From assembly GCA_013696965.1 (NCBI GenBank), contig JACCXN010000091.1:1-64000 (forward strand): a stretch of 64,000 nucleotides of DNA, written 5' to 3'. The translations under genes and the position numbers were made by a program. The DNA is from Bacteroidota bacterium. Lineage in GTDB: Bacteria > Bacteroidota > Bacteroidia > JACCXN01. The notes under the pieces are model-generated. The model made no database searches. It had not been told where the DNA came from and saw only the letters and a program-made list of their open reading frames with translations. Below are positions 14,233 to 54,303 of the stretch, one piece after another. Positions within the stretch are counted from its first letter, which is position 1, and every line of letters starts with the position of its first letter.

Positions 14233-14982
14233 CTAAATTGGCATCTTTTGTTTTTTAAAATCACCTTTTGAAAAAAACTTTTCTATAAAACAATAAAGAA
14301 GAATAAAAAAATATCTGCTTCCCATTTCCTTAATTTTAAGTTTTGACTGACCATATTTTCTGTTAGTCCAGGAATTTGCCATAATTTCATAAGAATAACC
14401 TCTAATAATCGCCTTAAGGGGTAATTCAACTGTTAAATTAAAATGAGGAGACAAAATAGGTTTAATCCCCAGAATAACTTCTTTTTTATAAAGTTTAAAT
14501 GCATTTGTGGTATCATTGTAACTAATATTCATAACAATACCAATAATTCTATTCGCTATCCGATTAATTATTTTTTTTACTAAAGGATAATCAATAACCT
14601 TTCCCCCCCTGCTCCATCTGGTGCCAAAAACACAATCCACATCTTTCTCTAACATGGTGGTGTAAAATTTAATCAAATCATATGGAGAATCAGATAAGTC
14701 AGCCATCATTATAGCAACACAATCTCCATTAAACCTTTCTAAGCCATATTTGATTGCATTTCCAAAACCGTTAGGTCCAGGATTGGTAAAATACTTAACA
14801 GTTAATGGATACTTAAAGCATAATTCTTCCAATTTTTTTTCCGTGCAGTCTTTTGAATTATCATTTACAATTAAGATTTCGTGATCAATTTTGATATTAA
14901 TTAAAGCTGCTTCAATAGCATCAATTGTTTCTGTAATTGATTCTTCTTCATTATAAGCTGGAATAATAATACTTAACTTCAT
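14233..14982 (-). CDS. Family 2 glycosyltransferase (DPM1-like)
   Basis: This 249-residue GT2 protein begins LSIIIPAYNEEESI and carries VNDNSKDCTE and the metal site MMADLSDSP. It then has the DTTNAFKLYKKEVI and NRKYGQSKLKIKEMG features of dolichyl- or polyprenyl-phosphate hexose synthases, and no C-terminal TM pair. DPM1-like enzymes make a polyprenyl-phosphate sugar that is used on the outer side by GT-C transferases. The next two genes upstream encode GT-C-like membrane proteins, so a donor-synthase/GT-C relay is plausible (inference). Confidence 0.85.
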   Translation of the reverse strand: MKLSIIIPAYNEEESITETIDAIEAALINIKIDHEILIVNDNSKDCTEKKLEELCFKYPLTVKYFTNPGPNGFGNAIKYGLERFNGDCVAIMMADLSDSPYDLIKFYTTMLEKDVDCVFGTRWSRGGKVIDYPLVKKIINRIANRIIGIVMNISYNDTTNAFKLYKKEVILGIKPILSPHFNLTVELPLKAIIRGYSYEIMANSWTNRKYGQSKLKIKEMGSRYFFILLYCFIEKFFSKGDFKKQKMPI

Positions 14983-15004: not shown

Positions 15005-16579
15005 TTAAAAATACTTATGATCTAAATTTTCAATTGTAGATGAACCGTTAATTTCTTCTAACAATTTATTGATGTTAGAAGAAAAATTTAATATTTTTTC
15101 TTCAGAATCAATAATTTCAATAATTACTTGCGAATTAAGAGACGAATCTAAAGTATTACCGGCTTTTGTAACAGAATTAGTTTCAAAATTCTCAACATTT
15201 TTACGAATGAAAATCTTATCAATTTTATGTTCATTGGCAATATTAATAATCATTTCCAACAAAGGTTTATTATTATATTTATCTGTTTCTTTAATAAAAA
15301 TCTGAAGTAATTTACTTTTTAACTCCATTCTCATATTCACGTAAAATTCTGAATAGAACAATGGATATAAACTAAACAATATTAAGTATCCTAAAACATA
15401 AAAAGCATCGTGGTTTTCATTGTAAGACGAGCCTTCAAGCGAAAAAAAATGAAAACTACCTGCAATTATTGAATACCAACCTAATATTCTTGCAAAATGA
15501 GGATTCACAAAACCAAAAACGACAATGGAAACAATAATTCCGATATTCATTCTATCTAAGCTACCAGCCAAAAGTAAAATGTCAACAAACAGAACTAACA
15601 AAAACAATGACATTGCTACAATATTTATTTTTTTATATATAAATTGAAAACTCCACAATAAAATAGCTGCATAAACAAGAATATTTTTAAATACTAGCCA
15701 TTTTACAGGAAATAAATTTTTAGCAAAAATCCAAACTGATGCATGCGAAGGATCTACTCCGATGTTAGAATCCATTCTTGTTAACATCATATAAAGCACA
15801 TTAGGTAAAAATGGAATGAACCAAATAATCGAAAAAAACAAGGTTAATAATGAAAAATAACAACCTTTAATTATTAAAGGACGATTAATTTTGAAAATGT
15901 TTCCGGGCTCTTCTAATAGAAAAAAGAGACAAACCGGAAAAACAAATACTCCCAAACCTTTATATGCAATTGAACATCCCATAAAAATAGCACTCAAAAA
16001 TATTTTTTTATCTTTTGCAAAATAAATTGCAAGCAACATAAATAATATTTGCAGTCCTTTATCTTCAGGTAATATAGTACCCCAAAATAAAAGCGTTGGA
16101 GAAAGAGCACCAATTCCTAACATAAGAATCATATTTAACAATGATTTTTTAAGGTGCCAAAACTTAAGTAAAAAAAGTACAATTAAAGATGATAGTATAG
16201 AATCGAAAAATGCAAAAACAATTCGATAAGCAACCGGATCTCCATTGAATATTTTTTCAATTGCGCCAAAAAACAATAAAGAAAGGGGCAAATTACCACT
16301 TGAATAAAAATCCCACACCTCCTGTGATTGAGAAACATATTCAACAAAAGCTACATCATCCAGTCGCAATAAATTACGTAACTCCTTTCCATCATTAAAA
16401 TCGTATGGATTAATTCCGTGACTTATTAGCTGGCCGCCATCTCTGTATATACTCAGATCAATAAAGTTGTTTTGTTCAGGAAATGAGTATATAAAATGCA
16501 ATCTGATCAAAAATGCAGCAATAAAGGTAAATAAGAGGAAAACTTTCCTATTAGAATATAATTGTCGAACTATCAGCAT
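15005..16579 (-). CDS. GT-C-like polytopic membrane protein, shorter paralogue
   Basis: This 524-residue protein has about 10-11 TM helices over residues 15-410. The first extracytoplasmic loop carries IDLSIYRDGGQLISHGINPY, like the acidic loop of GT87/PMT-type GT-C transferases that use polyprenyl-phosphate sugars. The tail (about 415-524) is soluble. It aligns with the first half of the tail of the neighbouring 16663-18540 protein (KLLQIFIKETDKY versus KLFRIFIRESDKY; VIIEIIDSEEKI versus MIVEIADEKEKL), then stops. It is a tandem duplicate whose tail is shortened. Activity unproven; conserved loop acidic residues are kept. Confidence 0.7.
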   Translation of the reverse strand: MLIVRQLYSNRKVFLLFTFIAAFLIRLHFIYSFPEQNNFIDLSIYRDGGQLISHGINPYDFNDGKELRNLLRLDDVAFVEYVSQSQEVWDFYSSGNLPLSLLFFGAIEKIFNGDPVAYRIVFAFFDSILSSLIVLFLLKFWHLKKSLLNMILMLGIGALSPTLLFWGTILPEDKGLQILFMLLAIYFAKDKKIFLSAIFMGCSIAYKGLGVFVFPVCLFFLLEEPGNIFKINRPLIIKGCYFSLLTLFFSIIWFIPFLPNVLYMMLTRMDSNIGVDPSHASVWIFAKNLFPVKWLVFKNILVYAAILLWSFQFIYKKINIVAMSLFLLVLFVDILLLAGSLDRMNIGIIVSIVVFGFVNPHFARILGWYSIIAGSFHFFSLEGSSYNENHDAFYVLGYLILFSLYPLFYSEFYVNMRMELKSKLLQIFIKETDKYNNKPLLEMIINIANEHKIDKIFIRKNVENFETNSVTKAGNTLDSSLNSQVIIEIIDSEEKILNFSSNINKLLEEINGSSTIENLDHKYF

Positions 16580-16662
16580 AATTATTTAAAAAATTCAATA
16601 ATTTTATCAATTAATAAATCAACTTTTTTTCCTTTTTTATTTGAACCCAATTTTAAAAAAAA

Positions 16663-18540
16663 TCAAGATGATCTGCTAAAATATATTACTGTTTCAAAAA
16701 TTCCTCCGTGATTTTCATTCTTTTTAAATTCATAGAATTGATTTTTATTTAATAATTCTTTAAACTTATTAATTATGCTTTTATCAGGATCCATATTACC
16801 TTTATTTATTTGCAGCTGTATTTGTTGAATATTATTTAACAAATTATCCGAAAATAATCCAAGCAAGCTATAATATTCATTCATATCAAGATTAACTTTT
16901 AATCCAATCAAATTTTCAGAAAGATTCTTTTGTCTTATAAAACCTTCAAGACTGGCAACATTTTTAACAATAGGATTACTTTCATTAAACAAAACAAATT
17001 CAAACTTTTTCCTTTGTAAAAAATGTTTAATATTATAATAAAATTTATTTAATTTTTCCTTTTCATCAGCTATTTCAACTATCATAATTTTGTCAAAAGC
17101 CAGATCGACTGCGTTGCTTTTATAAATTTCAGAATTAGTTATCAATTTATTCACTTCCTTATGAATGGTTATCTCATTGAATTTTCCTTTTTTTGCCATC
17201 TCGGCAATCACTTCATGTAATGGGAAGCCCTTATATTTATCAGATTCTCTAATAAAAATCCGAAATAACTTTTCTTTAAGATTAGATTGTATCCATTTAT
17301 AAAATCCAGAATAAAATAAGGGATATGAACTGAATAATAAAAGATAAGATAAAGCATACATCGCATCGTGCTCTTCATTATAAACAGAAGGATCAGCAAA
17401 CAAAAGCAAACTTCCAGCAATAATTGAATACCATCCGAGTATTTGTGCAAAATGAGAATTCACAAGCCCGAAAGCAATTATAGAAATTATAATTCCAATA
17501 TTCATTTCAGCAAGATCATAGTGCAACGGCAAAATAGCTGAGCCAAGAATCAGAACAAAAATTGACATCATCATAATATCAATTTTTTTATAAATAAATT
17601 GATAAGACCAAATTAGTGCAATACAAACAATTATCAGATCTTTTAAAATAATCCAAGAGTTTGGAAATAATTGTTTCATAAAAATCCATATTGATGCATG
17701 TTCCGGTTCTGTGACATGGTTTGAAACTAATCCTGATTGGATAATATACATAACATCCGGATAAAAAGGAACAAACCAAATGCAAGAAATTAATAAGGTT
17801 AGTATAGTATATTTGTACCCTTGGATAAGATCATGCCTGTCAGTCCTAAAAATATTGTTCGGAGTATTGATAATTAAATAAAAGCAAATTGGAAAAATAA
17901 ACATTCCGACTTTCATGAATGCGATGGAACATCCAAGAAAAATTGCACTATTAATCCATTTTTTACCTCTTGCAAAATAAATAGCTAAGATCATTAATAA
18001 TATTCCAAGCCCTGCATCAGCAGGAATAATAGTTCCCCACAACAAGAGTGTTGGAGAAAAGACACCCATCCCTAATATTAAAAGGAGGTTTAAAAATGTC
18101 TGTTTTATTAGCCAAAATTGCAATAGAAACAGCACGATGAGTGCTGATAATATAGCATCAACAAATGCAAAAATAATTCTATAAGATTCTAAATCTCCGG
18201 TTGTTATTTTACTTATTACACTATAGTAGATTAAGGTAAGAGGAGATCTTTTTGTGACATGAAAGTTCCATTTTTCAATATATCCATCAATTATAGCGTT
18301 ATAAGAACTAAGATCAAGACGAATTTTGTCTCGCATTTCACTTCCTTCATTATAATTATATGGGTTTATTCTATATTTTACAAGCTGTCCGCCATCGATA
18401 TTAAAATTCAGATCAATTGATCTTGTTTCACTTACAGGAGTATCTAAATAAAATAGTCTAACAGAGAAAGCAACAATAAATGAGAAAATAACAAGAAATA
18501 ATTTTTTTCTTTTCAAAAACGAATTTAATAATTTATTCAT
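16663..18540 (-). CDS. GT-C-like membrane protein with C-terminal degenerate FkbM-like domain
   Basis: I prefer the ATG at 18540 (MNKLLNSFLKRKK, matching the paralogue's N-terminus) over one at 18582. The TM region parallels the 15005-16579 protein, including IDLNFNIDGGQLVKYRINPY. The final ~230 residues are soluble and resemble the FkbM methyltransferase encoded next door. ENLIGLKVNLDMNEYYSLLGLF matches that protein's ENIDVLKIDTEGHEYYCLEGLF position by position, and both end with an ELLNKN-x-F/Y-x-E motif. The acidic KIDTEG signature is degraded to KVNLDM and no VDVGAN SAM loop is seen. The domain is therefore probably not catalytic and may have a structural or binding role. Confidence 0.7.
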   Translation of the reverse strand: MNKLLNSFLKRKKLFLVIFSFIVAFSVRLFYLDTPVSETRSIDLNFNIDGGQLVKYRINPYNYNEGSEMRDKIRLDLSSYNAIIDGYIEKWNFHVTKRSPLTLIYYSVISKITTGDLESYRIIFAFVDAILSALIVLFLLQFWLIKQTFLNLLLILGMGVFSPTLLLWGTIIPADAGLGILLMILAIYFARGKKWINSAIFLGCSIAFMKVGMFIFPICFYLIINTPNNIFRTDRHDLIQGYKYTILTLLISCIWFVPFYPDVMYIIQSGLVSNHVTEPEHASIWIFMKQLFPNSWIILKDLIIVCIALIWSYQFIYKKIDIMMMSIFVLILGSAILPLHYDLAEMNIGIIISIIAFGLVNSHFAQILGWYSIIAGSLLLFADPSVYNEEHDAMYALSYLLLFSSYPLFYSGFYKWIQSNLKEKLFRIFIRESDKYKGFPLHEVIAEMAKKGKFNEITIHKEVNKLITNSEIYKSNAVDLAFDKIMIVEIADEKEKLNKFYYNIKHFLQRKKFEFVLFNESNPIVKNVASLEGFIRQKNLSENLIGLKVNLDMNEYYSLLGLFSDNLLNNIQQIQLQINKGNMDPDKSIINKFKELLNKNQFYEFKKNENHGGIFETVIYFSRSS

Positions 18541-18640
18541 AATTATTATTTTAAATCTTGATATCCATCTTCCATAATGCAATGAGAATTATGGAAAGTT
18601 ATAATACAAAATATAAACTAAGCTGTTCCTGGTCGCATTT

Positions 18641-19396
18641 TTAATCTTTTTTCAAAAAATTTTTTGGTGAAGTTTTACAAGAAAATATCACTTCATCAAA
18701 ATCACCGTAGCCATGTTTAATTTTCTTACATTCAAAAAAATAATTCTTGTTTAACAATTCGTTAATTTGACTGAATTTAATCCTATTAAAATACATGTCA
18801 TCATTATGATTTTCCAGTTGAATATACTTAATTTTGGCTTCTGACTTATCTAAAAAAAGTCCTTCCAAACAATAATATTCATGCCCTTCTGTGTCAATTT
18901 TTAAAACATCTATATTTTCATTGAATCCGCACATCTTAATAAATTCAGACAAAGTGGTTACATTTACTGAATAACTCTTTGTAATAATTGCATCTTTATC
19001 AACACCTAATATTTTAGCTTTTTTCTTCAGGTATTCCGAATTCATGTTTAGTTCTTCAAACGAGGAAGTATAATCCAGTACATTTTCAAAAAACAACTTA
19101 TCACCTACTTTATCTGATATTCCAAAATTGAAAATTTTAATATTTGCATTACCAGAATATTTTTTAACTAGTAATGAAAAAAGTTCGGGATTTGGTTCAA
19201 TAGCATAAATCTTACATTCTGGATTTATTGTCAAAAAGAAATCAATACTTTGCCCCTTATTTGCACCAACATCTATTACAATATTTATTTTTTCACTCTT
19301 TTTATAGAAATCCCTCATTAGCCTTTCGAAAAATAATTTTTCGTTTAAATCAATGAGTATTTTTATCAACCCAATTCTTACATCTTTAAATTTCAT
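18641..19396 (-). CDS. FkbM-family SAM-dependent methyltransferase
   Basis: This 251-residue protein has SAM-binding motif I (VIDVGANKGQ, residues 40-49), the acidic IYAIEPNPELF strand, the VTTLSEFI segment and the family signature LKIDTEGHEY (about 165-173). FkbM enzymes O-methylate sugars or polyketides. In polysaccharide loci they usually methylate a repeat-unit or terminal residue, and methylation can cap the chain. It precedes, in transcription order, the GT-C-like gene carrying a degenerate copy of its C-terminal half. No signal peptide; cytoplasmic. Confidence 0.88.
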   Translation of the reverse strand: MKFKDVRIGLIKILIDLNEKLFFERLMRDFYKKSEKINIVIDVGANKGQSIDFFLTINPECKIYAIEPNPELFSLLVKKYSGNANIKIFNFGISDKVGDKLFFENVLDYTSSFEELNMNSEYLKKKAKILGVDKDAIITKSYSVNVTTLSEFIKMCGFNENIDVLKIDTEGHEYYCLEGLFLDKSEAKIKYIQLENHNDDMYFNRIKFSQINELLNKNYFFECKKIKHGYGDFDEVIFSCKTSPKNFLKKD

Positions 19397-23065: not shown

Positions 23066-23863
23066 TTAAACTTCATTTTTAATTTTAAAAAAGAAAGTTT
23101 TAAATTCTGCATTGTTAATGTTTATTGTCTCTTCCGATTTATTGTCAAATATCAGATCATAATATTTTAAAAAATAATTCAAAAGCTTCTGCTCATTTAA
23201 AATCCAACATGCATATTTTGCCTGGTAGATATTTTTGGGAACAGTTTGAATTGTAATCCTGTCATTACCTTTAACAAGTAAAGGGGCACGGTTAATTACA
23301 ATAAATTCTATTTTTTTTGAAACCAAATAATCAATAAACTCATAAGGTTTTTCTAAATATTGCAAAACGGATGAAAGTAATAAAACATCAATCTTATAAC
23401 TAGCCATACAGTTTTCAACATCATAAAAAAAATGCAGTTGATCATCTGCAAAGGTTTTTTGACCCTCCTTAACAAAATGGGCTTGTTCAACTATGCACCA
23501 ATTAAAATCAATACTGCCTTTAAAAAAATTTCTATTTTGATAATAACTGCTGCCTAATGAGCCACCAAAATCTAACACATTAATTTTGTTTTTATTTTTA
23601 TTTTTTAAGGCAACATAAGATAAAGCGGATAAAAGGGGGAAGGAGTAATGAATTTTATCAAAAATAACTGAATCTCTCTCAAAAACTGCTTCGCCATTTT
23701 TCACTTTTAATAATGCATTTTTTACCTTAGTAAATATAATGTCAGTATCATAACCAGAGGATTTATCCTTTGCTTCTTTCCATGAGGAAAAATTGCCTGT
23801 CCATCCATAAAATAAACCTGTAATCTTTTTTAAAAAAAATGGTGGGATGAAATCCTTTAACAT
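23066..23863 (-). CDS. Putative methyltransferase, TIGR04325-type
   Basis: This 265-residue protein resembles the TIGR04325 putative methyltransferases of polysaccharide loci: GWTGNFSSWKEAKDKSSGYD near the N-terminus, then VLDFGGSLGSSYYQNRNF as the SAM-loop equivalent. CIVEQAHFVKEGQ and LLSSVLQYLEKPYEFID occupy the usual later positions. The fold is Rossmann-like. The acceptor is unknown; a sugar or lipid-linked glycan is likely from context. Cytoplasmic, no signal peptide. Confidence 0.75.
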   Translation of the reverse strand: MLKDFIPPFFLKKITGLFYGWTGNFSSWKEAKDKSSGYDTDIIFTKVKNALLKVKNGEAVFERDSVIFDKIHYSFPLLSALSYVALKNKNKNKINVLDFGGSLGSSYYQNRNFFKGSIDFNWCIVEQAHFVKEGQKTFADDQLHFFYDVENCMASYKIDVLLLSSVLQYLEKPYEFIDYLVSKKIEFIVINRAPLLVKGNDRITIQTVPKNIYQAKYACWILNEQKLLNYFLKYYDLIFDNKSEETININNAEFKTFFFKIKNEV

Positions 23864-28373: not shown

Positions 28374-29204
28374 TTAAGCTATTAGCTTTTTCGCCTTTTG
28401 ATATAAATTAAGAAACAGGCTAATTAAAACGCCCAAAAACATTCCTAAAAAACCAAACCCAATGGCCTTCTTAAACATGCCGGTATAAATATCAACTACT
28501 TCATAAGGATTACTAGTAATTACGAAGTCTAATTCTTTTGAAAAAGCAAGTTCTTTTTCAATTTTTTGTTTTTGTTCAAATAGTTCTATATAACTCCAGT
28601 TCCCAAACTTTCCATTGGTAAGTAATTTAATCAATGAAGCATTTGATTCGTAATAGCCTTTGCCTAAATTTTTCTTATCTATCGCTTCTTCAATTAAATT
28701 ATCAACAACTTCCAGGAGTTTTTGTTTTTGTGATCGGGCAAAAATTTCACGTCTTTTTACGTATTCATTTATGATCACATAATGTTCAACTCCTTTTATT
28801 ATACTATCCACAGCCTCTTTATTATTTGCCTCTATTCTGATTTCAATTAAATTTGAAGGTTTAATTTCTGCTTTTATTACCCTTAAATCGTTTAAAATAT
28901 TCTGAGATAAACCAGGCTCATTAGGAAGAATTTCACTATTTAAAGAACTGGAAATATGCTTTAATTTCAAACCAACGGAATTGATGATTTCCACCATCAT
29001 ATCATTTGGAATTTGATTCGATTGTACAGTATATGTTTTTAAATAATAATACCTGGGCTGTTTAAAATTTTTAATTAAATCATAGGTTCCCAGTAATACC
29101 CCAATAAAAAAAAACGCAATTAATAATTTTTTTTTCTTTTTTAAAATGTAAATGGAATCTGCAAATAGTTTTAATAAATCTATTTCATTTTCAGTATTTG
29201 TCAT
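28374..29204 (-). CDS. Wzz-like chain-length determinant protein
   Basis: This 276-residue inner-membrane protein starts NEIDLLKLFADSIYILKKKKKLLIAFFFIGVLLG, with TM1 at about 30-48. It has a periplasmic helical region (about 60-240) and TM2 near the C-terminus (AIGFGFLGMFLGVLISLFLNL). The topology is that of Wzz/PCP co-polymerases, which set polysaccharide chain length with Wzy. No cytoplasmic tyrosine kinase domain is attached. It is the first gene of the polysaccharide locus and starts 47 bp after the end of rny, so read-through from rny is possible. Confidence 0.82.
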   Translation of the reverse strand: MTNTENEIDLLKLFADSIYILKKKKKLLIAFFFIGVLLGTYDLIKNFKQPRYYYLKTYTVQSNQIPNDMMVEIINSVGLKLKHISSSLNSEILPNEPGLSQNILNDLRVIKAEIKPSNLIEIRIEANNKEAVDSIIKGVEHYVIINEYVKRREIFARSQKQKLLEVVDNLIEEAIDKKNLGKGYYESNASLIKLLTNGKFGNWSYIELFEQKQKIEKELAFSKELDFVITSNPYEVVDIYTGMFKKAIGFGFLGMFLGVLISLFLNLYQKAKKLIA

Positions 29205-39672: not shown

Positions 39673-40968
39673 ATGAAAACAGGAACACAAATACAGGAAA
39701 ATATAAAGACAAATATTTCTGAAATAATAAATTTATTCCTGAAAGTCAGAAAACAAACCAATGATATCTGCCACCCATTATTGATCGAGGATTATACAAT
39801 TCAACCTATTATTGATGTGAGTCCCCCAAAATGGCACCTGGCACATACAACCTGGTTTTTTGAAAATTTCGTTCTCATCCCCAGTAAAAAGAATTATCGT
39901 GCTTTTAATCCTGGTTATAATTATCTTTTTAACAGTTACTATGAATCAGTAGGAGAAAGAATACTAAGAGCAAACAGGGGGTATTTATCCAGGCCAACTA
40001 TTGAAGATATTTATAATTACAGGATGTATGTTAATGAGAACCTGCTTGATTTTTTGAATTCAAATGGCCTGATTACAACAAAAATTTTGAAAATAATTGA
40101 ATTGGGAATTAACCATGAGCAACAACACCAGGAACTGCTATTAATGGATATAAAATACATTTTAGGTACAAATCCATTATTTCCAGCATTTTTAAATTCC
40201 GAAAACACAAATGAGCATCCTCCTGAAAAACCAATTGAAAATTATCTGGATATGGCTGAAGGCATTTATGAAATAGGATACAGTGGAAATGAATTTTCAT
40301 ATGATAATGAAAAAGAAAAACATAAAGTATACTTAAATTCTTTCCGCTATCTGGACAGGCTAATTACCAATCAGGAATATTTAGAATTCATTGAAGCCAA
40401 AGGATACGAAGATTTCAGTTTTTGGCTTCAGGAGGGCTGGGAATGGATAAAACTCAATAATATCACTTCACCTCTATATTGGCATTATTCTCAAAAACAG
40501 TGGCATTATTACACTTTAAGAGGGTTAAAACCACTTGGCTATCACGATCCTGTAACCCATGTGAGTTATTATGAGGCTGATGCTTTTGCCAAATGGAAAA
40601 ATAAAAGACTGCTTACTGAATTTGAATGGGAAGTAGTTGCAAAGGAATTATATAAAGTAATACCTGAAAATGCCAATTTTCTAGAAGAAGGGCATTATGC
40701 CCCTGTTCCAAGAAAAAATTATTCAACCCAGTTATTTGGGGATGTCTGGGAATGGACCAGTAGTGCTTACCTTCCTTATCCTGGCTTTAAAATAGCACAA
40801 GGTGCTTTAGGTGAATACAATGGAAAGTTTATGATTAACCAAATGATTTTAAGGGGGGGATCCTGCGCAACACCAAAAAACCATATAAGATTTTCATACC
40901 GCAATTTTTTTCATCCTGATAAGAGATGGCAATTCTCAGGAATAAGATTAGCGGAAAACCTAAAATAA
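39673..40968 (+). CDS. egtB: Ergothioneine biosynthesis sulfoxide synthase EgtB
   Basis: This 431-residue non-haem iron enzyme has a DinB-like N-domain (about 10-160) with the three-His iron site, WHLAHTTWFFE (H58) and H148-x3-H152-x-E154. The FGE-sulfatase C-type domain (about 190-431) has DMAEGIYEIGYSGNEF, GDVWEWTSSAY and ILRGGSCATPKNHIRFSYRNFF. It joins hercynine to a thiol donor with oxygen. The next gene is egtD at 5 bp. No EgtA or EgtC is nearby, so the donor may be cysteine rather than gamma-glutamylcysteine (inference). Confidence 0.9.
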   Translation: MKTGTQIQENIKTNISEIINLFLKVRKQTNDICHPLLIEDYTIQPIIDVSPPKWHLAHTTWFFENFVLIPSKKNYRAFNPGYNYLFNSYYESVGERILRANRGYLSRPTIEDIYNYRMYVNENLLDFLNSNGLITTKILKIIELGINHEQQHQELLLMDIKYILGTNPLFPAFLNSENTNEHPPEKPIENYLDMAEGIYEIGYSGNEFSYDNEKEKHKVYLNSFRYLDRLITNQEYLEFIEAKGYEDFSFWLQEGWEWIKLNNITSPLYWHYSQKQWHYYTLRGLKPLGYHDPVTHVSYYEADAFAKWKNKRLLTEFEWEVVAKELYKVIPENANFLEEGHYAPVPRKNYSTQLFGDVWEWTSSAYLPYPGFKIAQGALGEYNGKFMINQMILRGGSCATPKNHIRFSYRNFFHPDKRWQFSGIRLAENLK

Positions 40969-40973
40969 ATAAA

Positions 40974-41942
40974 ATGGAAGATATATTAATAAAAGCAAAT
41001 GTCACCAAATTTGCATCAGAGGTAATGGAAGGACTTTCTGCCTTTCCCAAGTATTTGCACTCAAAACACCTTTATGACGAATGCGGTGATCGTTTATTTA
41101 AAGCAATCATGCTTATGCCTGAGTATTATTTAACGGATAGCGAATATGAAATTTTTTCTAGCCATAAAGATGAACTCATTAAAACTTTTACTGAAACTAA
41201 AAATGAATTTATTCTTATTGAATTAGGAGCTGGAGATGCACTAAAAACAAAATTACTTTTAAAACAGCTGTCTGATGAGCAAGTAAAATTCAAATATATG
41301 CCAATTGATATATCAGCAAATGCAATTGAAAAACTTGAAGAAGATCTGGCATCAAATATTCCTGCAGTTACTGTACAGGGAATTAATGATGAGTTTTTAC
41401 CTGCAATCGAAAAATTAAAGAACATTGAAACGCGTAAAGTTATTTTATTTTTAGGTTCCAGTATCGGAAACTTCGAATCTACAGAGGCATTGGAATTTCT
41501 AAGTGATCTCGCAAAAACACTTAGTCCTGATGACTTGTTTTTAATTGGCTTTGATTTAAAAAAGGACCCTTCAGTAATATTAGACGCATATAATGACAAA
41601 CAAGGAATTACAGGAGCATTTAATTTCAACATCCTGGAGCGGATAAATAAGGAACTAGGAGGAAATTTTGACATTTCTAAATTTAAACACTACCCCACAT
41701 ATGATCCTATTAATGGGGAGGCAAGGAGTTATCTTATTAGTAAACAAAAACAAGATGTATACATTGAAGCCATTAACAAAGTTATTTTCTTTGACCAGTG
41801 GGAACCCATAAAAATTGAGGTTTCAAAAAAATACGATCTTGAATCAATAGAAAAACTTGCAAAAAATGCAGGTTTTACAATTAAATATAATTTTTATGAT
41901 TGCAGGAATTATTTTGTTGATTCAGTTTGGAATTTGAGTTGA
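40974..41942 (+). CDS. egtD: L-histidine N-alpha-methyltransferase EgtD
   Basis: The 322-residue form from the ATG at 40974 is preferred. The frame stays open back to 40926, but that would overlap egtB and add a non-conserved leader. It has FPKYLHSKHLYDECGDRLF near the start, SAM motif LIELGAGDALKTKLLL, MPIDISANAIEKLEEDL, LFLGSSIGNFE, and the C-terminal SLISKQKQDV-type histidine-binding region. EgtD makes hercynine (N-alpha-trimethylhistidine), the substrate of EgtB. It is immediately downstream of egtB in an operon. Confidence 0.9.
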   Translation: MEDILIKANVTKFASEVMEGLSAFPKYLHSKHLYDECGDRLFKAIMLMPEYYLTDSEYEIFSSHKDELIKTFTETKNEFILIELGAGDALKTKLLLKQLSDEQVKFKYMPIDISANAIEKLEEDLASNIPAVTVQGINDEFLPAIEKLKNIETRKVILFLGSSIGNFESTEALEFLSDLAKTLSPDDLFLIGFDLKKDPSVILDAYNDKQGITGAFNFNILERINKELGGNFDISKFKHYPTYDPINGEARSYLISKQKQDVYIEAINKVIFFDQWEPIKIEVSKKYDLESIEKLAKNAGFTIKYNFYDCRNYFVDSVWNLS

Positions 41943-52149: not shown

Positions 52150-52830
52150 TTACATGTTACCATAAGAGGCTTGTTTTTCAATACTAAGATTATCTACAAT
52201 TTCACATACCCCAGAGGTGTAATTCACTATTTCATTTACTCTCATCCTGGCAAGGTGTGAAGGGACTTTTCCTGATAAAGTCACTATTCTGTTTTTAACA
52301 TCCACTTTTATATTTCTTGTATTATGATAATCGTTTCTTTCAAAGGCTTTTTTAATGTCTGAAACTATTTCCTGATCTGAATAAATTCTGTTTCTGCTAA
52401 CTATAATAGAATCAATTACTTCTTTTATTCCAGTAATTCTAAATGCATATCCCTTAATTACATTTTTTTTCCAGTAAGCATCAACCGTCCCTTTCACAGT
52501 AGCAACTCCATCATTTACTGAAACGGAAATCGAATCAGCATCAATCCCATCATCAAGGCTCAATAGTTCATTTAAGATATCCATTACCTGTTCATCAGTG
52601 GGAACAACAACAGATTCAGGATAAGTTACTTCAATATTATTTTCCACGCGATTAACTCCTGATATTGAAAGGGCATCTTCCTCTGCTGCCTTTCGGCTAG
52701 AAAAATCAGGAACCTCTCCACTTAACCTTACGGTTCCATCCAGAATTTCTACATTAATATTTGCAGACAAAATTCTATCGTCCCAGATAAATTGATCCTT
52801 AATAGCCTTTTTAACCTCAGATTGCTCCAT
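52150..52830 (-). CDS. Triple BON-domain protein 1
   Basis: I use the ATG at 52830 (MEQSEVKKAIKDQFIWDDRI), which lines up with the two paralogues, rather than one 33 bp upstream. The 226 residues form three BON domains of about 70 residues each. Each has the Gly-containing pattern (LDGTVRLSGEVPDFSSRKAA, VNDGVATVKGTVDAYWKK, VKNRIVTLSGKVPSHLAR) followed by a GVxxVxxxI strand. BON domains bind membranes or polymers and occur in osmotic-stress proteins such as OsmY. There is no signal peptide, so it is probably cytoplasmic. First of a tandem triplet near mscS. Confidence 0.88.
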   Translation of the reverse strand: MEQSEVKKAIKDQFIWDDRILSANINVEILDGTVRLSGEVPDFSSRKAAEEDALSISGVNRVENNIEVTYPESVVVPTDEQVMDILNELLSLDDGIDADSISVSVNDGVATVKGTVDAYWKKNVIKGYAFRITGIKEVIDSIIVSRNRIYSDQEIVSDIKKAFERNDYHNTRNIKVDVKNRIVTLSGKVPSHLARMRVNEIVNYTSGVCEIVDNLSIEKQASYGNM

Positions 52831-52910
52831 GAAATAAATATTTAACTTTAATAAATTATGCAAAAAATCTTCAAAAGTAATTTAGCAATAAAAATCTGCT
52901 AAATTAAATA

Positions 52911-53579
52911 CTACCACAATTCAAGATGGTTTATGACATTTGTAACCCCGAAGGTATAACTTGCAATCTGCCTTGCCTTAATTTTGGCGGTATAAGAGGG
53001 TACAAAACCAGTCAATATAACCTGGCCATTTTTAACATCAACCCGGATATCTTCTGCCTGCATTAGGGTATTTCTTTTCACCGCATTTATAATTTCTTCT
53101 TTAATTTGCTGATCAGAAAGTTCAACATTAATGCGAACCTCTATATTATTGATTACATTATTAACGCCAGTTACGCGATGAGCGTAGTTTTCGGTTTGCT
53201 CCTTTTTCCAATGGGCATTTACTGTACCGTTTAAGGTTACAACTCCCCCTTCTACATTAACATTAATTGTTTCATTATCAATCCTTGGATCAATTCTTAC
53301 CATGTTTTTTATAAAAGATTTTATTTTATTGTCATCAGGAATAATGACTGATTGAGGATTTTTTACACGTAAATTATTTTCAACATTTCTTACCCCTGAA
53401 ATTGAAAATGCATCATCCTCAGCTGCTAATCTACTGGCATAAGTGGGAACCTCTCCCGAAAGCTTAACCGTACCATCAAATACCTCTATAAATATTTTTA
53501 CAGATAAAACCCTGTCATCCCATTCAAGTTGTTCTTTTACTTTATCTGCTATCGCTTGTTTTTCACTATAAACTGCCAT
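52911..53579 (-). CDS. Triple BON-domain protein 2
   Basis: This 222-residue paralogue has three BON repeats in the same register as its neighbours: VFDGTVKLSGEVPTYASRLA, VEGGVVTLNGTVNAHWKKEQ and VKNGQVILTGFVPSYTAKIK. It ends TNVINHLELW. It has no signal peptide or TM and shares the WDDRVL opening with proteins 1 and 3. Gaps of about 80 bp and 55 bp to the flanking copies suggest one transcription unit. Confidence 0.88.
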   Translation of the reverse strand: MAVYSEKQAIADKVKEQLEWDDRVLSVKIFIEVFDGTVKLSGEVPTYASRLAAEDDAFSISGVRNVENNLRVKNPQSVIIPDDNKIKSFIKNMVRIDPRIDNETINVNVEGGVVTLNGTVNAHWKKEQTENYAHRVTGVNNVINNIEVRINVELSDQQIKEEIINAVKRNTLMQAEDIRVDVKNGQVILTGFVPSYTAKIKARQIASYTFGVTNVINHLELW

Positions 53580-53634
53580 AAATCAATAATTTTATTTAAA
53601 AAAACAATACTTTAAATATTCTGATTTTTTTATT

Positions 53635-54303
53635 TTATCTTAGAATTAACTTGTCAATTACATTAACAACTCCTGTGGTAAATTGTGCAAGTTCATTGGC
53701 TCTAATTCTTGCCACATAGGAAGGAACTTTACCTGATAGAGTTACTTCTCCATCGCTAACCTGAATTTTAACCTCATCTGCATTTATATACCCGCTTCTT
53801 CTAAATGCTCTATCCAGATCAGAGGCTATATCCTGATCACTGTATTCACCCTGTGGGGTAACTGTGATTTTATCATTTACATCAACAACCCCTGCTATTC
53901 GATAGCAATAGCTTTCCACTACATCCTTTTTCCAAAAAAAATTCACATTTCCATTAATTGTTACAATACCATTATTTACACTAATATTAATATTTCTATG
54001 CTCTATGCGGTTATCAAATTTTAAATTGTTTTCAATAGCAAATTTTATTTCATCATCCGAGAGTACATTATACGTTTCGGGATACCTCACCTTTAAATTG
54101 TTTTCTACACCTACCACTCCATAAACCGAAAGAGCATCTTCCTCTGCTGCCATTCGGCTTGAATAGTTATAAACCTCCCCGGATAGCTTAACCGTTCCAT
54201 CAGCTACATCAATGTTGATATTTTCTGCCTGTACCCTGTCATCCCAATTGAACTGATCTTGTATAGTTTCCTTAATTACTTGTTTTACATGGGTTGTTGC
54301 CAT
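53635..54303 (-). CDS. Triple BON-domain protein 3
   Basis: This 222-residue paralogue opens ATTHVKQVIKETIQDQFNWD and has BON repeats VADGTVKLSGEVYNYSSRMA, VNNGIVTINGNVNFFWKKDV and VSDGEVTLSGKVPSYVARIR. It is the promoter-proximal gene of the triplet. The three copies are diverged but collinear over their full length, so the duplication is old and all three look intact. Confidence 0.88.
   Translation of the reverse strand: MATTHVKQVIKETIQDQFNWDDRVQAENINIDVADGTVKLSGEVYNYSSRMAAEEDALSVYGVVGVENNLKVRYPETYNVLSDDEIKFAIENNLKFDNRIEHRNINISVNNGIVTINGNVNFFWKKDVVESYCYRIAGVVDVNDKITVTPQGEYSDQDIASDLDRAFRRSGYINADEVKIQVSDGEVTLSGKVPSYVARIRANELAQFTTGVVNVIDKLILR

Follow-up and report, generated by a model that had tools for sequence, protein, structure and literature searches.

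A polysaccharide gene cluster of a Bacteroidota bacterium contains an open reading frame, here termed GTC1, which encodes a membrane protein resembling GT-C glycosyltransferases and which ends in a sequence related to FkbM methyltransferases, with an intact fkbM gene at its side. This raises the question of how such a protein was formed, and whether its parts have a function. The window analyzed is a stretch of 64,000 nt. The first-pass annotation of this DNA had the coordinates of the open reading frame exactly right; the strand is the minus strand. Its description of a GT-C-like protein with a non-catalytic FkbM-derived tail, situated beside an intact FkbM, is borne out by homology and by the curated family scores of the intact protein (see below). 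It missed a DUF190 domain, which is present in GTC1 and also in the downstream paralogue GTC2. GTC1 is a real, unusual chimera of known kinds of sequence, i.e. GT-C, DUF190 and FkbM. Positions of the segments and neighboring genes are shown in Table 1.

Table 1. Segments of GTC1 and neighboring loci (positions in the window).
Feature	Positions	Strand
GTC1, 625 aa: GT-C-like membrane protein + DUF190 (PII-like) + FkbM C-terminal half	16663–18540	-
GTC1 membrane part, residues 1–413; ~12 hydrophobic segments, predicted large first extracytoplasmic loop	17302–18540	-
GTC1 DUF190/PII-like domain, residues 424–510, without last strand	17011–17271	-
GTC1 junction stretch, residues 511–526, from DUF190 to FkbM-derived part; approximate breakpoint zone	16963–17010	-
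GTC1 FkbM-derived C-terminal half, residues 527–625, beta4 to beta7; FkbM polar signature gone	16666–16962	-
GTC2, 524-aa paralogue: GT-C-like + complete DUF190, without FkbM tail	15005–16579	-
GTC2 DUF190/PII-like domain	15026–15313	-
fkbM, complete gene of an FkbM-family methyltransferase, 251 aa; the tail probably derives from it	18641–19396	-
fkbM segment homologous to GTC1 tail, residues 145–243	18668–18964	-
fkbM-GTC1 intergenic region, 100 nt; counterpart of the GTC1-GTC2 spacer in the duplication model	18541–18640	-
GTC1-GTC2 intergenic region, 83 nt	16580–16662	-
GT2 enzyme similar to polyprenyl-phosphate sugar synthases; probably makes the GT-C donor	14233–14982	-

The cluster that holds GTC1 extends on the minus strand from about position 29204 down to 8214. 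In order, it encodes a chain-length regulator-like protein, a flippase, a polymerase-like protein, sugar-nucleotide enzymes, FkbM, GTC1, GTC2 and GT2, followed by further glycosyltransferases, an O-antigen ligase/polymerase family protein and a priming sugar transferase. A second methyltransferase of the cluster, at positions 23066–23863 (minus strand), belongs to the TIGR04325 family (213 bits, cut-off 80). The GTC1 reading frame starts with ATG; an upstream TTG at position 18582 is an alternative start, and an inverted repeat in the fkbM-GTC1 spacer, CCATAAT-N9-ATTATGG (positions 18572–18594, minus strand), lies around it. Other loci in the window were recognized by eye: adjacent EgtB- and EgtD-like genes at 39673–41942 (plus strand; ergothioneine or ovothiol-type synthesis), and three consecutive paralogues of ~220–237 aa at 52150–54303 (minus strand) that look like tandem BON-domain proteins. 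A PADLOC search found no defence families.

The amino acid sequences of GTC1 and GTC2 are 49% identical over 500 aa, which include the membrane part and DUF190; the membrane part of GTC1 by itself displays 50% identity to GTC2. The identity of GTC2 to proteins from a Cytophagaceae MAG and from Runella is 39% and 30%, respectively. Neither GTC1 nor GTC2 gives a direct match to a Pfam GT-C family. There is a remote profile similarity (hhalign 92.3) to an archaeal GT87/PIG-M/PIG-U-like protein, whose own Pfam matches are to PIG-U above the cut-off, to GT87 just below it and, weakly, to PIG-M. Hydropathy and conservation, with segment borders set by hand, agree with the polytopic GT-C pattern in which a large first extracytoplasmic loop carries acidic residues. 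GTC1 and GTC2 are thus termed GT-C-like on the basis of topology and remote profile similarity. The hydrophobic segments and the charge counts (positive-inside rule, hand-set borders) suggest 12 membrane helices with both ends cytoplasmic, so that the PII-like and FkbM-derived parts would be on the cytoplasmic side, the usual side for such domains. The model of full-length GTC1 is unusable (pLDDT 38.8), and searches of PDB sequences with the GT-C part yielded no match.

The closest known types are the GT-C enzymes of GT87/PimE and GT50/PIG-M. GTC1 and GTC2 appear to resemble these in being polytopic, in having acidic residues that do not vary in a large first extracytoplasmic loop, and in an invariant His further along the chain; a gene resembling those of GT2 polyprenyl-phosphate sugar synthases is also found next door to GTC2. 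In PimE, Asp58 in the first-loop region is the base and polyprenyl-phosphate-mannose the donor (PMC12041525). Unlike these enzymes, GTC1 and GTC2 have a C-terminal PII-like domain, and GTC1 has half a methyltransferase in addition.

The PII-like domain is identified by Pfam as DUF190 (PF02641, COG1993), with a gathering cut-off of 23.4 bits. The score is 44.2 bits for GTC1 (E-value = 2.4e-11) and 52.4 bits for GTC2 (E-value = 6.8e-14), where the match encompasses residues 423–517 and covers the whole domain, including the last strand. By sequence, TM0021 (1o51) and PH1503 (2dcl) are the nearest relatives of solved structure. Proteins of the PII-like superfamily are ferredoxin-like modules that act as trimers (PMC1779786). 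The GTC1 and GTC2 domains are, by profile, divergent members of DUF190: 18 of 37 conserved sites are kept in GTC2 and 16 of 37 in GTC1. Because most of the Gly/His-rich signature has been lost, it is doubtful that either domain binds the usual DUF190 ligand. Compared with other DUF190/COG1993/UPF0166 proteins, both score above the curated cut-off, but they are fused to a membrane enzyme and have little of the polar/Gly signature left.

DUF190 is normally a standalone protein of ~110 aa and its usual neighbor is crcB. Such an arrangement, crcB beside DUF190, is seen for example at the comparison locus L004. In the present genome the only copies of DUF190 are the GTC1 and GTC2 fusions and there is no standalone DUF190 gene. 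A crcB gene is present elsewhere in the genome (contig C30, positions 65493–65825). PII-type trimers dock on membrane proteins, as in GlnK-AmtB and SbtB-SbtA. The idea for GTC1 and GTC2 is similar, in that a PII-like module would sit at a membrane protein on its cytosolic side, but here the fusion is covalent, the partner is a GT-C protein, the ligand signature is degraded and the trimer is putative.

The first-pass annotation took the last ~230 residues of GTC1 to be an FkbM tail. This assignment was rejected, since about 90 of these residues are the DUF190/PII-like domain found by Pfam, and only the last ~99–115, corresponding to the C-terminal half of the methyltransferase fold, are FkbM-derived. 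Over this shorter region the proposed gap-free alignment with the adjacent FkbM is fully recovered: blastp shows 37 identities in 99 residues (37%) with no gaps and an E-value of 4e-14, and the alignment stops at most 8 residues from the FkbM C-terminus. A translated search of the whole genome finds the same similarity (E-value = 2.1e-10). The ungapped BLOSUM62 score is 159, compared with a maximum of 62 in 300 shuffled sequences. Pfam shows no FkbM match to the tail at an E-value of 10; profile comparison with the FkbM subfamily does (hhalign probability 94.9).

The tail holds beta4 to beta7. No SAM loop is visible in it because the SAM-binding N-terminal half is missing altogether, including motif I (of the VIDVGAN type) and the acidic residue that follows beta2, and DUF190 is in that position. 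The term "degenerate FkbM domain" is imprecise, the SAM-binding half being absent rather than degraded. Loss of key acidic and Gly residues is confirmed in the half that is present: the D-x-E-G-x-E signature, KIDTEGHE in FkbM, reads KVNLDMNE in the tail, and the E, H and DD that come after the signature are also gone. At 35 sites the three closest FkbM proteins all have the same residue; of these the tail retains 9 of 16 hydrophobic and only 5 of 19 polar/Gly residues. The hydrophobic folded core is therefore kept and the polar signature of FkbM is lost. A structure prediction is in agreement with this; an AlphaFold2 model of residues 508–625, built with 14 FkbM relatives, displays the strand-helix order of beta4 to beta7 (pLDDT 80.4, pTM 0.73). 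Class I methyltransferases are among the nearest structural matches in Foldseek (probability 0.99), with GNAT acetyltransferases mixed in and E-values of at least 0.008, the chain being short. Next to the tail, the intact FkbM has motif I and is above both cut-offs (67.3 bits vs 22.7 for PF05050; 85.3 vs 37.7 for TIGR01444). Relative to members of this family, the tail is homologous to the C-terminal half of its neighbor but is without the SAM-binding half and the signature residues, and judged by its sequence it is very unlikely to have methyltransferase activity.

How the fusion was formed is suggested by the gene order. If the ancestral order was fkbM followed by a GT-C::DUF190 gene, the fusion would follow from a tandem duplication with one approximate breakpoint inside fkbM (around codon 130) and the other shortly before the GT-C gene ends (around codon 511). 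The 3′ half of fkbM would then continue the reading frame of the first GT-C copy, and a complete GT-C::DUF190 copy, GTC2, would lie downstream. The order observed, fkbM, GTC1 with its partial fkbM, GTC2, is the one expected from one such duplication out of register. In a phylogenetic tree the tail groups with the local fkbM (support 95/90), nested in a clade with the two closest outside FkbM proteins, although the long branch of the tail makes its position less secure. Blastp scores of the tail are 65.9 bits with its own FkbM, and 36.6 and 26.2 bits with the two nearest outside proteins. Across the segments, dS is of the same order in the membrane part (1.45), DUF190 (1.08) and the tail (1.95), and third-position identities are 0.47, 0.47 and 0.51; dS is saturated, and these values are compatible with an equal age of the segments but do not prove it. 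The duplication also predicts similarity between the fkbM-GTC1 and GTC1-GTC2 spacers. None is detectable, which counts against the model, although neutral DNA of such age would not be expected to retain it. The origin of the GTC1 chimera by duplication is well supported.

The genome is a draft in 106 contigs, and a fusion could in principle be produced by faulty assembly or sequencing. This explanation has next to no probability here: the junction is contiguous, and misassembly cannot account for a tail that has only 37% of its residues in common with fkbM and has diverged from it at every codon position.

The chimera appears to be rare. Searches with the GT-C part gave no match in 395 genomes of the class, 396 genomes of the phylum, viral contigs or plasmids, at a sensitivity that distant family members could escape. 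A pattern scan of 84,980 species found only relatives without DUF190, and the homologues of the membrane part in the Cytophagaceae MAG and Runella have neither DUF190 nor tail. DUF190 itself is found in 168 of the 396 phylum genomes. The database search that the first-pass annotation called for detected no other GT-C/DUF190 fusion among the matches listed for ~400 phylum genomes, in which weak DUF190 matches are short frames (18 genomes, mostly weak ones, were rechecked), nor among the relatives in the 84,980 species. Long DUF190 open frames elsewhere were considered as fusions and rejected; those checked are upstream read-through beside standalone DUF190 genes. A literature search on DUF190 and FkbM fusions found nothing relevant. 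Because the Cytophagaceae and Runella relatives are without DUF190 and tail, the likely series would be GT-C alone, then GT-C::DUF190, then GT-C::DUF190 with the FkbM half.

The two copies have not diverged equally. With the Cytophagaceae protein as outgroup there are 66 unique changes in GTC1 and 32 in GTC2 (p = 0.0008); with the Runella protein the numbers are 46 and 29 (p = 0.064). Seven charged residues common to GTC2 and both outgroups are changed in GTC1, i.e. D60N, D63E, E108S, K174A, R268G, D342A and R343E (GTC2 numbering), and there is one case of the reverse in GTC2, conservation being judged here among only four or five sequences. Faster divergence together with these losses makes GTC1 look like a diverged, perhaps catalytically weakened partner of GTC2; from its sequence, its activity is probably reduced, changed or absent. 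A possible but less likely reading is that GTC1 is a second, fully functional GT-C enzyme whose specificity for sugar or acceptor has changed, with DUF190 and the FkbM half as structural additions that play no active part. Polysaccharide clusters often contain GT-C paralogues that form different linkages, the membrane part of GTC1 is intact and constrained (dN/dS ~0.3), and the catalytic-acid candidates D43 and D76 and the invariant His H281 are retained; the seven altered charged residues, which include K174A, R268G and the adjacent D342A/R343E, and the elevated rate argue against it. GTC1 might also be a pseudo-glycosyltransferase that regulates GTC2 within a mixed PII-like trimer, with the half-methyltransferase as a structural cap or partner-binding module, but this is considered rather improbable.

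The GTC1 frame has no stop or frameshift in 625 codons in spite of near-saturated synonymous divergence. In simulations of neutral drift of at least 0.5 changes per site the frame of the tail alone stays open in at most 0.15% of cases; total synonymous divergence exceeds this distance, though the share of the tail branch may be smaller. The dN/dS for tail and fkbM is ~0.25, a value to which the fkbM branch contributes. The open frame and the dN/dS thus make it most likely that the tail has been maintained as coding sequence for a folded part. These results weaken the view that the tail is a non-functional, decaying leftover and GTC1 a pseudogene in the making; lost FkbM signature, truncated DUF190 and accelerated divergence would fit such a decay, but it seems unlikely. 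A structural or partner-binding role is allowed, because the frame is open and a fold is predicted. A more specific role was also considered, that the tail serves specifically as a scaffold or a regulatory module which binds the intact FkbM, e.g. as a pseudo-dimer of C-terminal halves, and couples glycan transfer with methylation. The intact fkbM immediately upstream and a tail that is open, predicted to fold and has retained its hydrophobic core are in line with this. It is nevertheless improbable: gene order and tree account for the fusion by duplication without such a role, the tail has lost those FkbM residues for which a function is most likely, and the closest outside FkbM proteins (~50% identity; loci L045 and L046 in two other genomes of the class) have unrelated contexts with no GT-C neighbor. 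We know of no FkbM dimer interface.

Taken together, GTC1 is probably a chimera produced by out-of-register tandem duplication, with GTC2 as the likely working enzyme, GTC1 as its probably weakened partner and the FkbM half as a putative folded cap. In this scheme a polyprenyl phosphate charged with a sugar by GT2 would be the donor from which GTC2, acting at the periplasmic face, passes the sugar on as the polysaccharide is assembled. Since PII-like domains form trimers, those of GTC1 and GTC2 may assemble with each other; the positive-inside rule puts the GTC1 domain on the cytoplasmic side, and the FkbM half would be a non-methylating cap that replaces the lost DUF190 strand.

The tail of GTC1 is a clear example of an in-frame chimera formed by out-of-register duplication in an operon, in which the new half-domain stays folded while its catalytic residues go. 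Of greatest interest in the chimera is that a GT-C protein carries a PII-like domain. If GTC1 is a pseudo-glycosyltransferase that regulates GTC2, this would be a GT-C system with PII-like control built into the chain, and no earlier one is known to us. DUF190 proteins are widespread and functionally obscure, and are usually found beside the membrane protein CrcB. Their covalent fusion to another polytopic membrane enzyme suggests that DUF190 modules act at the cytosolic side of membrane proteins.
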